Positions 1 through 4,297 of a DNA stretch of 40,564 bases are shown in pieces. Numbering within the stretch: position 1 is the first letter of the stretch; every line of letters starts with the position of its first letter. A program made the position numbers and the translations under genes. Source of the DNA: Verrucomicrobiota bacterium. Lineage in GTDB: Bacteria > Verrucomicrobiota > Verrucomicrobiia > Limisphaerales > UBA8199. The notes under the pieces were generated by a model. The model saw only the letters and a list, made by a program, of their open reading frames with translations. It searched no databases and was not told the origin of the DNA. The stretch spans positions 1 through 40,564 of the forward strand of contig JARKQH010000120.1 of NCBI GenBank assembly GCA_029974925.1. Direction: 5' to 3'.

Positions 1-75
1 GCGCCGGGAGGCGCCGACGTAGGGGATGTGCTCAGACGACTCATGCAACGACGTGAAGAGGAATTAAACCGATGA
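1..75 (+). CDS. 3' end of an upstream gene (partial)
   Basis: An open frame enters the window at base 1 and reads 24 codons to a TGA at 73-75, ending in the charged tail LRRLMQRREEELNR. The stop overlaps the ATG of the next gene (ATGA), the usual sign of a co-transcribed, translationally coupled pair. The Shine-Dalgarno-like AAGAGGAA of the next gene lies inside this tail. Position just upstream of a secretin suggests a pilus or type II secretion assembly protein (PilO/GspM-like genes often sit here), but the fragment is too short to identify. Confidence 0.5.
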   Translation, partial: APGGADVGDVLRRLMQRREEELNR

Positions 76-1433
76 AAACGCAATTAAACTCGACCTCCCT
101 CCCGCAACGGGCCGCCCCCGCGGCCGGTTCCCGAGCCGCCAGCGTCACCCTGGCCGTGCTGCTGGCGGGCTTGACGGGGGTTCCGGGCCAGGACTCCCCC
201 CCACCCCCTGCCGCCCCGCCGCCTCCGCCGGCAACCAATGTGGTGAGCGAAATGCCAACGCCAGCGGCGCCGCCGCCGGCCGAGCCCGCGGCGCCGGCGC
301 CTGAACCCGCGCCGGCCGTGCCGGCCGTTTCGGCCCCCGTTGCTGTAACCAACAGCGCGGCCGCGCCCGACACCCCCCCGGCCAACCCGGATGAATTGCG
401 TTTGAATTTCCGCGGCGTGCCCCTCGAAATGGTGCTGAACTACCTGAGTGAGGCCGCGGGCTTCATCATCGTGCTGGATGCCCAGCCGCGGGGCCGGGTG
501 GACATGTGGAGCAGCCAGCCCGTCACGCGCGAGGAGGCGGTGGCGCTCCTCAACTCGGTGTTGCATAAGAACGGTTTGGCGGCCATCCGCAAAGGCCGCA
601 CCCTCACCATCATCAACCGCGACGAAGCCAAAATCCGCCCCATCCCCGTCCGGATGGGAAGCGACCCGGAATCCATCCCGGACGACGAGGAAATTGTCAC
701 CCACATCATCCCCGTCCGGTTTGTGGAGGCCACGCAGTTGCTGAAGGACTTGCAACCCTTGGTTTCGGTCAACACCTCCATGACGGCGAACGAATCGGGG
801 AATTCCATCGTTATCACCGACACCCAATCCAACATCCGCCGGGTGGCCGAAGTCATCAAGGCCATAGACCAAGGGGCCGAAGACGTGACCGAAGTCCGCG
901 TGTTCCGCCTCACCAATGCCGATCCGACCGAGATGTCCGAGTTGTTAACCAGCCTGTTTCCCGATGAAACCCGCACCGGCGGACAGTCGCAGGGCGGGGG
1001 ATTCCGCAGTTTCTTCCGGGGCGGTTTTCCCGGCGGCCCGTCGGCCGGCGGAGGCGGCAGCAGCGGCACTCAAAACCAGCGCGTCCGAAAGCGGGCGCGG
1101 GTGCTGGCGGTGCCGGACGCCCGGACTTCTTCGGTGGTCGTCACGGCGGCCAAGGACTTGATGGACCAGGTCGAACAAGTGGTGATCGCGCTGGACGAAG
1201 ACCCCGCCCGGCGCCAGACCGTCAAAGTCTTCCAACTCGATAATGCCGATCCGCAGGAAGCCATGGAGGTGTTGCGGGACATCTTCCAGAAGAGCGGCAC
1301 CCAGACCAGCCGCAACAACCGCACCCAGACCAGCGTGCTCCAGAATCGCAGTGAGCAGCAGCAGAACCAACAGACCACCGGAACCACCTTCAACCGCGGC
1401 GGCTCAACCCGCCGCACCAGCACCGCCCGCTGA
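72..1433 (+). CDS. Secretin N-terminal half (N0-N1-N2 and first half of N3)
   Basis: Encodes 453 residues resembling the periplasmic part of GspD/PilQ secretins, the outer-membrane channels of type II secretion and type IV pili. Residues 1-40 look like a signal peptide; 41-105 is a Pro/Ala-rich linker; 109-185 fits the N0 fold (NFRGVPLEMVLNYLSEAAG); 208-267 is N1; 273-377 is N2 with a Gly/Ser-rich insertion at about 299-338; 382-408 is only the first strand-helix part of N3 (VKVFQLDNADPQEAMEVLRD). It then runs into a Gln/Asn/Thr/Arg-rich tail and stops. No membrane-forming secretin core is present. The stop at 1431-1433 touches the next open frame, which carries the remaining half of N3 and the core. 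RBS AAGAGGAA precedes the ATG. Confidence 0.85.
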   Translation: MKTQLNSTSLPQRAAPAAGSRAASVTLAVLLAGLTGVPGQDSPPPPAAPPPPPATNVVSEMPTPAAPPPAEPAAPAPEPAPAVPAVSAPVAVTNSAAAPDTPPANPDELRLNFRGVPLEMVLNYLSEAAGFIIVLDAQPRGRVDMWSSQPVTREEAVALLNSVLHKNGLAAIRKGRTLTIINRDEAKIRPIPVRMGSDPESIPDDEEIVTHIIPVRFVEATQLLKDLQPLVSVNTSMTANESGNSIVITDTQSNIRRVAEVIKAIDQGAEDVTEVRVFRLTNADPTEMSELLTSLFPDETRTGGQSQGGGFRSFFRGGFPGGPSAGGGGSSGTQNQRVRKRARVLAVPDARTSSVVVTAAKDLMDQVEQVVIALDEDPARRQTVKVFQLDNADPQEAMEVLRDIFQKSGTQTSRNNRTQTSVLQNRSEQQQNQQTTGTTFNRGGSTRRTSTAR

Positions 1434-1471
1434 TGCCCTCCACCCACTCTTCGATCTCATTTCACAAGATT

Positions 1472-2740
1472 ATGAAACACGAACCCCATGCCAGCCTTCC
1501 CAGCCCCAGCCGGACGTGGGCGCCCCCCCGCCGGCTCCTCCAGGCTGCCACCCTTCTCGGCTGCCTCACCCTCGGCTTTTCCTTGACCGCCCAGTTCTTC
1601 CCCGGCCAGTTCGGCGCCAGCTCCCGCTCCCGCAGCAGCACCGCCTCGACCCGCCAGTATCCCTCGGCAGGGACCGTGGGCGATGCGGTCTTCACCGTGG
1701 ACCCGGAGACGCGGAGCCTGATCGTGATTGCGGACGAGGAAACCAGCCAGTACATCTCCCAGGTGGTGTCCAACCTGGACCGGCCCAAGCCCCAGGTGCT
1801 GATCAAGGTCGTGTTCCTCGAAGTCACGCATAACAACAGCTCGGATATCGGCATCGAGGGGGGCTGGGCCAAAAACATCGGCAACTCCACCACCGGGGCG
1901 GTGGCCAATGCCTTTGGCATGTCAGGCATTGCATCCGCCGCGGGCACCAACGCCGCCAACGTCTTTGGCCAGCCCATCCAGGCCTTTTCTCCCATGCCCC
2001 CCGGCGCGGGGCTCTACCAAATCTTTGCGCAGGATTACCAGGTCACGCTCCGCGCCATCGCGCAGGCGGGCAAAGCCAAGGTGCTGTCGCGGCCTTCCAT
2101 TGTGGCCCGCAACAACCAGCCCGCCACCATCACGGTCGGACAGTCGGTGCCCCTCATCACCAACGTGCGGTTTGACAACTTTGGCAACGCCATCAATTCG
2201 GTCACCTATGAGGACGTCGGCATCATTCTGCGCGTGACACCGTTCATCACCGGCGACGGCATGGTCGAGATGGTCGTCTCTCCCGAAACCTCCGACCTCG
2301 AGGCGGACCGGACCCAGTGGGTCCCGTTGTCCAGCGGCAGCGCCGGCGCCGTGAGCGCGCCGCTCATCAATTCGCGGTCGGCGGACACCGTGGTGGTGAC
2401 GCCCAACGGCCAAACCGTGATCATTGGCGGCCTGATGCAGAATTCCAAGGCGGAGGCCGAAAGCAAGGTCCCCGTCCTGGGGGACATCCCCCTGCTGGGC
2501 AACTTGTTCAAACGCAAAACCAAGAGCGATGCCCGCACCGAGCTGCTGATCTTCCTCACCCCCTACATCATCGAAGCGCCCACCGAGCTGGCCGCCGTGA
2601 CCGCGCGCGAGCAGGAGCGGTCCAGCATCAACAAAGCCTTCACGGAACAGGAACTCAACCAATTCCTGGACCGGCTGCCGCAACAAACCCCCGCCCCGGA
2701 GGGGGGCGACGGCAACGGCTCGAAACGGCGCAAACGCTGA
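1472..2740 (+). CDS. Secretin C-terminal half (second half of N3 plus secretin core)
   Basis: Encodes 422 residues from ATG 1472. An in-frame ATG at 1433, overlapping the previous stop, would add 13 residues. I prefer 1472 because the protein then begins with a basic n-region and a hydrophobic segment (about 21-40, LLQAATLLGCLTLGFSLTA) like a signal peptide. Residues 68-106 complete an N3 domain (FTVDPETRSLIVIADEET). The rest is a typical secretin core, with VLSRPSIVARNNQPATITVG, VTYEDVGIILRVTPFI, VVVTPNGQTVIIGGLM and VPVLGDIPLLGNLF, ending in LLIFLTPYII. This forms the gated outer-membrane ring. Together with the preceding gene it equals one complete GspD-like secretin made as two polypeptides. 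Confidence 0.88.
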   Translation: MKHEPHASLPSPSRTWAPPRRLLQAATLLGCLTLGFSLTAQFFPGQFGASSRSRSSTASTRQYPSAGTVGDAVFTVDPETRSLIVIADEETSQYISQVVSNLDRPKPQVLIKVVFLEVTHNNSSDIGIEGGWAKNIGNSTTGAVANAFGMSGIASAAGTNAANVFGQPIQAFSPMPPGAGLYQIFAQDYQVTLRAIAQAGKAKVLSRPSIVARNNQPATITVGQSVPLITNVRFDNFGNAINSVTYEDVGIILRVTPFITGDGMVEMVVSPETSDLEADRTQWVPLSSGSAGAVSAPLINSRSADTVVVTPNGQTVIIGGLMQNSKAEAESKVPVLGDIPLLGNLFKRKTKSDARTELLIFLTPYIIEAPTELAAVTAREQERSSINKAFTEQELNQFLDRLPQQTPAPEGGDGNGSKRRKR

Positions 2741-2752
2741 ACCGGCCGGCTT

Positions 2753-4297
2753 ATGGAACTCACCCGGCGCAGCCTCGTGGTTTACGGCCTCCTGGCCGCA
2801 GTGTGGCTGCTGGTGGTCATCTGGCAGATCGAAGAGCATGCCCGGGTGCGCGAAGCAGCGCGGACGAATCTCAGCAACCGCTCCAAGGACATTGCCAACA
2901 CCGTCAGCGCCTGCATTCGCGGCATGCGGTTTCGCGGCACGGTCTGGCAGGACCGCCTCGAGCCCCTGCTCCAGGAGCTGGTGCATGGCCGGTCCAACGA
3001 ATTGGTGAAAGCCAGCGAGGTGGTCAGCATTGTCCTGCTCAACGCGGCGGGCGAGCCGGTGGCCTCGGCGGGCAAGCCCGTGGACCTCTCGCAGCAGGAC
3101 ATTCTCCAAAAAGGGGAGCGCTGGGGCGCCCACACGGTGGTCTTTGCCAATCCCGTGGACCTGGGGGTCAGCCTGATCTCGCAGGGAACCACCAACCCCA
3201 CCGTCGTGCTCCCCTCGATGAGCAACCTGACCAACTCCTTTGAACCCCCGCGCGGCGGGCCCCCCGCCCGACGCGACGGGCGCATGGAAGGGGCGGGGAT
3301 GCCTCCCCCGCCTCCACCCCGCCCACCGGAAGGAGAGGTCCGCCCGGGCGAGCGCGACGGACGCCGCGACGGCGATTTTTGGTCCCGGCGCCTGTTCTGG
3401 CTGCGGGGCCTCGAGTATGAGGATTTCCAGCAGCTCCTTCAGAAGCGCGCCGTGCATGGCTTGGTGCTGGCCTTGTCCACCGAGGGGTTCCAAGCCGCCG
3501 TCCAGCGCGATCTATGGCTCCGCGCCATCATTGTGTGCCTGGCCACCATCTCCGTGCTGGGCTCCGGCCTGGCCTGGCGCAACCTCGCCAAATCTTCCGA
3601 GCTCCAAATCCGCCTGGTGCGCGCCAGCGAGCTCAACACTCACCTCAAGGAGATGAACCTGGCGGCGGCCGGCCTGGCCCATGAAACCCGCAATCCCTTG
3701 AATATCATCCGGGGGCGGGCGCAGATGATTTCACGTTATCCCCAAATCCCTCCGGAGATCGGCCAGCGGGCGCGGGAAATCATCGAGGAAGCCGACAAGG
3801 TCGCCGCTCAGTTGAACGAATTCATCAACTACTCGCGCCCGCGCGAAGTGCGGCGGTCGGTCCTGCCGCTCGGGCCGGTGGTCAACGAGGTCGTGCGCGC
3901 CCTCAGCTATGATCTCGAGGAGAAGCAGATTCATTTGCAGAAGCAGGGGGATCACCTGACCATCGAGGCGGATGAAAGGCTCCTGCGGCAGGCTTTGTTC
4001 AACCTCCTCATGAACGCCATCCAGGCCGTCAACGGCAAGGGTGAGATCGTCATCAACGCCGAAAAACGCGGCGCCAGCGAAGCGGTGATCGAAGTGCGGG
4101 ATAACGGGCCCGGAGTGCCGCCGGAGCGGCGTCAGGAGATTTTCAAGCCGTACTTTACCACCAACCGTCAGGGCACTGGCTTGGGCCTGGCGGTGGTCCA
4201 GCAAATCGTGCTCGCGCACGGCTGGGAGATTGAGTGTGCCGACAACCCGCCGCACGGCGCGGTCTTCCGCATCAAGCACGTCAAACTGGCGGGCTGA
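2753..4297 (+). CDS. Membrane sensor histidine kinase
   Basis: Encodes 514 residues. A first membrane segment lies at about 8-24 and a second at about 254-274, enclosing an extracytoplasmic sensor region. That region carries a Pro/Arg/Gly-rich insert at about 164-208. The HisKA H-box is AGLAHETRNPLNIIRG with the phosphoacceptor at H310. It is followed by a HATPase_c domain with N-box (LFNLLMNAIQAV), G1 (DNGPGVP), F-box (IFKPYFTT) and G2 (GTGLGLAVV). The arrangement, a short linker and no HAMP motif, is like NtrB/ZraS kinases, which usually pair with sigma-54 activators. No such partner is in the window, so the cognate regulator is unknown. It starts 12 bp after the secretin and is probably co-transcribed, so it may sense envelope or secretion state (inference). 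Confidence 0.9.
   Translation: MELTRRSLVVYGLLAAVWLLVVIWQIEEHARVREAARTNLSNRSKDIANTVSACIRGMRFRGTVWQDRLEPLLQELVHGRSNELVKASEVVSIVLLNAAGEPVASAGKPVDLSQQDILQKGERWGAHTVVFANPVDLGVSLISQGTTNPTVVLPSMSNLTNSFEPPRGGPPARRDGRMEGAGMPPPPPPRPPEGEVRPGERDGRRDGDFWSRRLFWLRGLEYEDFQQLLQKRAVHGLVLALSTEGFQAAVQRDLWLRAIIVCLATISVLGSGLAWRNLAKSSELQIRLVRASELNTHLKEMNLAAAGLAHETRNPLNIIRGRAQMISRYPQIPPEIGQRAREIIEEADKVAAQLNEFINYSRPREVRRSVLPLGPVVNEVVRALSYDLEEKQIHLQKQGDHLTIEADERLLRQALFNLLMNAIQAVNGKGEIVINAEKRGASEAVIEVRDNGPGVPPERRQEIFKPYFTTNRQGTGLGLAVVQQIVLAHGWEIECADNPPHGAVFRIKHVKLAG

Follow-up and report, generated by a model that had tools for sequence, protein, structure and literature searches.

The window analyzed here is a 40,564-nucleotide stretch of a Verrucomicrobiota bacterium (GenBank assembly GCA_029974925.1, contig JARKQH010000120.1, positions 1–40,564), whose left edge is a contig end (G000:C121) and in which two consecutive genes near that edge, for protein A (D1) and protein B (D2), together encode one secretin. 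Secretins are textbook one-chain homo-oligomers. The reading we prefer, with a probability of roughly 0.8, is that this pair is the GspD of a type II secretion system (T2SS) made as two separately exported proteins, with the periplasmic domain N3 shared between the two chains.

Profile searches divide a single secretin between the two proteins. A contains an N0 domain followed by three Secretin_N stretches, and B contains the last part of Secretin_N (profile positions 27–69) followed by the Secretin core, for which PF00263 scores 169 bits over profile positions 1–169. The NCBIfam GspD model TIGR02517, which has 600 positions, is covered from 1 to 295 by A and from 277 to 600 by B, indicating that A and B add up to exactly one secretin and bearing out the claim of an earlier note on this DNA that one N0-N1-N2-N3-core protein is spread over two genes. 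The periplasmic domains N0-N1-N2-N3 are of the GspD type (PF21305, PF03958, TIGR02517) but lie on two chains, and sequence matches to solved GspD structures agree with the assignment. PilQ models score below GspD for both proteins, and alignment to GspD and PilQ, which the note had named as a check, thus places both parts in the GspD type; a profile search of B detects no BON domain. The whole-protein cut-off of TIGR02517 is 351 bits, whereas the two proteins score 178 and 254 bits and neither suffices alone, and the pair is therefore classed as a two-chain GspD variant and not as a standard GspD. Formation of a multimeric outer-membrane channel that secretes proteins, by which GspD is defined, is predicted here from sequence. 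The break falls between α1 and β2 of N3. As had been described from the letters alone, A ends after a strand and helix of N3 and a Gln/Asn/Thr-rich tail, and B opens with a signal-peptide-like segment and a Ser/Arg-rich stretch before supplying the missing half of N3 (two strands and a helix) and the core; the corresponding loop of N2 does carry a Gly-rich insertion, which is conserved in the alignment of 159 relatives.

The split is genuine and not an artefact. All 159 nonredundant A/B pairs with a readable upstream side, distributed across many families, are broken at the same point of N3, a check in related genomes that the note had suggested (three loci cut by contig ends, L033, L236, and L242, were left out of this junction test), and a search of 40 relatives with analysis of the junctions gave the two-gene arrangement throughout. 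A continuous secretin gene in close relatives, named beforehand as a possible refutation, was not found among the 159 pairs or in the core tree, where unsplit GspDs occur only outside the split clade. B is found in 209 of 320 genomes of the order, 34 of 188 of the class, and 11 of 387 in a sample of the whole phylum, the last figure including two weak matches outside the split clade. The phylum search added five loci with this break to the 159 pairs, and the split is present in other classes of the phylum (L276, L277, L279, and L283); one of the 159 pairs sits on the only contig of a genome (G150) whose completeness is rated 100%. Close named matches are nearly all Verrucomicrobia, including a Pedosphaera parvula isolate, and one (L036) is filed as Omnitrophota. 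Both half-domains are intact and conserved across the 159 pairs, with V384, L401, F405, and D393 in the half-N3 of A at 91–96% and A85, D90, D101, T104, and L115 in the half-N3 of B at 98–100%.

The neighborhood of the pair is that of a T2SS. A long contig of a relative (L258) carries, in order, gspE, F, G, H, I-like, J, K, L-like (a weak PilN match), M (PilO-like), a gene in the GspC position, D1, D2, and a histidine kinase, with profile matches to T2SSE, T2SSF, T2SSG, GspH, T2SSJ, and T2SSK, that is, the gspE, gspF, gspG, and minor pseudopilin neighbors expected of GspD, and this order is kept in the other loci having enough flank. In the genome of the window, contig C286 carries gspE together with gspL up to residue 280; the T2SS operon is therefore probably interrupted by the assembly immediately ahead of the window. 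The gene preceding D1 (L258:10304-11065, its relatives, and positions 1–75 of the window) occupies the place of GspC and looks exported or membrane-anchored, of HR type, and has no Pfam or NCBIfam match. The earlier note had also allowed that a second complete secretin might do the work; the four further secretins of this genome are distant paralogues of the split pair, which has a T2SS operon of its own and is conserved there as the D component.

A structure model was calculated with AlphaFold2 for the relative L007 (B ∼80% identical), with A and B in one frame and the intervening stop read as Gln to give a single chain, using an input alignment of 53 in-frame A/B pairs only. The half-N3 of A is modeled at a predicted local distance difference test (pLDDT) of 88–90 and that of B at 72–90, and the stretch of ∼125 residues between them is of low confidence. 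Model residues 282–752 align to the N3-core part of solved GspD and PilQ (5w68: Z 14.9, 296 residues, 8.8 Å), and the segment 282–468, covering both halves, is matched as a single small domain (1p6t: Z 6.5, 59 residues, 2.1 Å, in the bottom rows of the list); the two N3 halves are therefore packed together in the model. In a control with the same alignment rows and A without B, the β1 strand of the half-N3 is lost and its pLDDT falls from 88–90 to 68–78 while the other N domains rise, and alignments of this model to solved secretins mostly stop before the half-N3 region. AlphaFold2 thus folds the two halves into one N3 domain, and N3 is probably completed between the chains. In a mean-field direct coupling analysis (DCA) of the 159 pairs, A385-B102 ranks second of all pairs, and the top raw inter-protein pairs exceed both full and clade-wise shuffles, a signal that stricter controls did not bear out clearly (see below).

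A half-domain break is repeated among the relatives. The secretins of three genomes are encoded in three parts. In G038 (L248 and L274) A is itself two genes, the first ending after the strand and helix of N2 and a Gly-rich tail, and the second opening with its own signal-peptide-like segment and a Gly/Ser-rich linker before the remaining strands and helix of N2; the same N2 break is present in G015 (L013) and G248 (L159), so that the pattern seen in N3 of the window recurs in N2. L208, in which A seems to carry a frameshift, is not counted as a three-part case.

Several results weigh against completion of N3 between subunits, and against the assignment as a whole. The AlphaFold2 chain was covalently joined, and its predicted template modeling score (pTM) is 0.41 with 53 sequences. 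In the DCA the half-N3 by half-N3 signal is strongest under one control, negative controls pairing N2 with B gave a similar excess, and the signal is not clear of controls under a stricter within-clade shuffle. The same genome also encodes an unsplit GspD-like secretin on the contig of another gspE (C339). Completion between subunits, which the note had raised as an unusual way to build the ring, is accordingly favored by the joined model and by conservation of the halves, and is left without clear backing by coevolution under the stricter controls. The most probable alternative is that no domain is shared, D2 forming a pore with an incomplete N3 and D1 acting as a separate periplasmic adaptor whose half-domain is used otherwise, for example in binding another D1. 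The tail of D1 does have a conserved L..R motif of its own (L423, 90%, and R426, 99%, in the 159 relatives; A 423–426, positions 1338–1349), and the two parts of the split rhizobial type III secretion system (T3SS) secretin are thought to serve as linker and pore (PMC3459982). Nevertheless, both halves keep the sequence pattern of N3, A loses its strand when modeled alone, the joined model forms one N3, and the half-domain break recurs in the N2 of three genomes, and we consider a separate adaptor improbable.

For the preferred two-chain GspD, the separate genes, the conserved pair, its conserved T2SS operon, and descent from GspD are observed, and from them the following assembly may be envisaged. 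D1, comprising N0-N1-N2 and the first strand and helix of N3, and D2, comprising the remainder of N3 (two strands and a helix) and the core that spans the membrane, would both be exported via Sec. A ring in the outer membrane would be built of D2 chains, and each D1 would dock by inserting its β1-α1 where the N3 of a D2 is incomplete. The resulting N3 ring would consist of two-chain domains joining the pore to the N0-N1-N2 stack, which would reach the GspC-like protein of the inner membrane, and the long low-complexity stretches at the break may be remnants of an insertion-tolerant loop.

Production of a single polypeptide by programmed frameshifting or stop read-through is very unlikely. The genes are adjacent, and in the 54 pairs that share a frame read-through would yield one chain. 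Across the 159 pairs, however, B falls at random in any of the three frames with respect to A (+2, 0, and +1 in 58, 54, and 47 pairs, respectively), the stop codon of A is TGA in 80, TAA in 54, and TAG in 25, and the two genes overlap by a few bases at one extreme and lie more than 800 nt apart at the other (L170 and L171). Moreover, 158 of the 159 B proteins have a hydrophobic, signal-peptide-like start by a simple hydropathy test rather than SignalP, and in most cases AxA-Q and a Gly/Phe/Ser-rich linker come next. The random frames, long gaps, and separate signal peptide of B argue strongly against a sequencing error as well as against frameshifting and read-through. The first ATG of B lies 0–100 nt past the stop of A in 145 of the 158 pairs that have an ATG and overlaps A in six; therefore ATG 1472, which is 38 nt past the stop of A and gives a compact signal peptide, is probably the start of D2, and ATG 1433 is doubtful. 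The TGATG that had been proposed to link the frames is present in the sequence, but a linking role is probably wrong given the rarity of overlap. Three apparent fused genes, L017 (942 aa), L027 (949 aa), and L133 (765 aa), were rejected as only long open frames with A in another frame. In L170 and L171, ∼950 nt of GC-rich sequence lacking a clear gene lie between D1 and the conserved part of D2.

Phylogenetic analysis places the pair among ordinary GspDs. All 42 sampled split members form one clade in the core tree (support 99/99) nested among unsplit secretins, those of planctomycetes being its closest neighbors, and the N0-N1 part of A likewise forms one clade (94/98). Of the unsplit proteins, L040 from a planctomycete (Sedimentisphaerales) matches A best and ranks second for B; it is encoded by a single continuous gene, and its N3 has a long low-complexity loop in the corresponding position. 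Because the split clade is monophyletic inside unsplit GspDs, the simplest history suggested by the sequences is one gene fission in the long low-complexity N3 loop of an ordinary GspD, after which B acquired a signal peptide.

In a text search of open-licence papers, one described kind of split secretin came up, that of the rhizobial T3SS (RhcC1, or NolW, and RhcC2) and its relatives in Pseudomonas syringae T3SS-2 (HrcIIC1 and HrcIIC2), which resemble the present pair in having two genes, one for an N-terminal part and one for the core. In the rhizobial proteins the break lies between domains, RhcC1 having the first N domain and RhcC2 consisting of BON plus core and branching with Tad secretins; the genes lie apart and differ in origin, RhcC2 deriving from a Tad secretin (PMC3459982, PMC3574062). 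By these published descriptions, the Verrucomicrobiota pair differs in being broken within a folded domain and in having neighboring genes that are inherited together. A partial gene replacement of this kind, with D1 and D2 of different origin, has the precedent of that published history (PMC3459982); however, A and B cover complementary halves of a single GspD model and hardly overlap on it, one unsplit planctomycete GspD is first or second for both, both parts are of GspD type with no mixed origin or Tad-type core with BON, and in the core tree the split members form one clade within GspD-type secretins, making such a replacement scarcely credible. A single secretin gene broken by sequencing error or by a recent frameshift or stop mutation, which a draft assembly of 487 contigs and frames overlapping by one base might suggest, is refuted by the same break in 159 pairs of many families, the new signal peptide on B, and the intact, conserved halves.

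The two-chain GspD shares with standard GspD (TIGR02517; 5wq7, 6hcg, 5w68) the N0-N1-N2-N3-core order, the gspE to gspM operon, and the modeled fold, and differs in comprising two polypeptides, both with signal peptides and predicted to be exported, broken between α1 and β2 of N3. A text search of open-licence literature found no papers on split T2SS secretins or on such an arrangement in Verrucomicrobiota. More broadly, and with somewhat less assurance than for the pair itself, it seems likely that secretin N domains have been cut by fission and rebuilt between exported chains once in N3, in an ancestor shared by many Verrucomicrobiota, and a second time in N2, in two families, so that some T2SS channels would consist of three polypeptides, with N3 (and N2) rings formed by domain complementation. 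That a conserved cut falls within a folded domain suggests that the N3 ring can act as a joint at which two proteins dock, and the split points to a stepwise assembly, pore first and periplasmic stack docked later, whose steps are inseparable in one-chain secretins. It also offers a natural handle by which pore and stack may be expressed and studied apart. Automatic searches demanding one full-length GspD may miss or mis-annotate the T2SS of Verrucomicrobiota.

Table 1. Features of the split secretin region. Positions refer to the window except in the last row, where they refer to locus L274.
Feature	Position	Strand	Basis or remark
Upstream gene, 3' end (...VLRRLMQRREEELNR*; GspC-like by position)	1–75	+	Matches C-terminus ...ILRRMMERREQELNR of the gene adjoining A upstream in L258
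D1 (protein A), 453 aa: signal peptide, Pro/Ala-rich stretch, N0-N1-N2, first N3 half	72–1433	+	
N0 domain (A 111–175)	402–596	+	PF21305, 41.5 bits
N1 domain (A 210–268)	699–875	+	Best PF03958 stretch
N2 domain (A 274–376), Gly-rich loop ∼978–1079	891–1199	+	Alignment of 159 relatives
N3 first half (A 382–406: β1-α1)	1215–1289	+	Conservation; modeled as one domain with B
Gln/Asn/Thr-rich tail of A, with L..R motif	1290–1430	+	Conservation among 159 relatives
D2 (protein B) open reading frame, 435 aa from first start; likely start ATG 1472, not ATG 1433	1433–2740	+	
Signal-peptide-like segment of B (MKHEPH...LLQAATLLGCLTLGFSLTA)	1472–1591	+	Such a segment in 158/159 relatives
Ser/Arg-rich linker of B (relatives: Gly/Phe/Ser-rich)	1592–1657	+	
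N3 second half (B 82–117, numbered from ATG 1433: β2-β3-α2)	1676–1783	+	PF03958 profile 27–69
Secretin core domain PF00263 (B 208–381)	2054–2575	+	169 bits
Sensor histidine kinase, conserved next operon gene	2753–4297	+	HisKA and HATPase_c; synteny
Three-part secretin of L274	7549–8439, 8443–9297, 9144–10547		

The number of N domains varies among relatives. In many of them (for example L010 and L016) A carries an additional N domain that the window, L007, and L008 lack, seen as two overlapping matches to the same profile part. Two loci encode giant secretins in which the Secretin_N stretches precede a normal Secretin core: L270:1507-13383 (G018:C162), of 3959 aa with 35 such stretches, and L271:1490-13912 (G013:C16), of 4141 aa with 28. 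Other long open frames encode 2646–3984 aa in G006, G005, and G037 and 2474–2967 aa in L048 and L045. A stack of ∼30 N-domain rings would far exceed the usual length of the periplasm.
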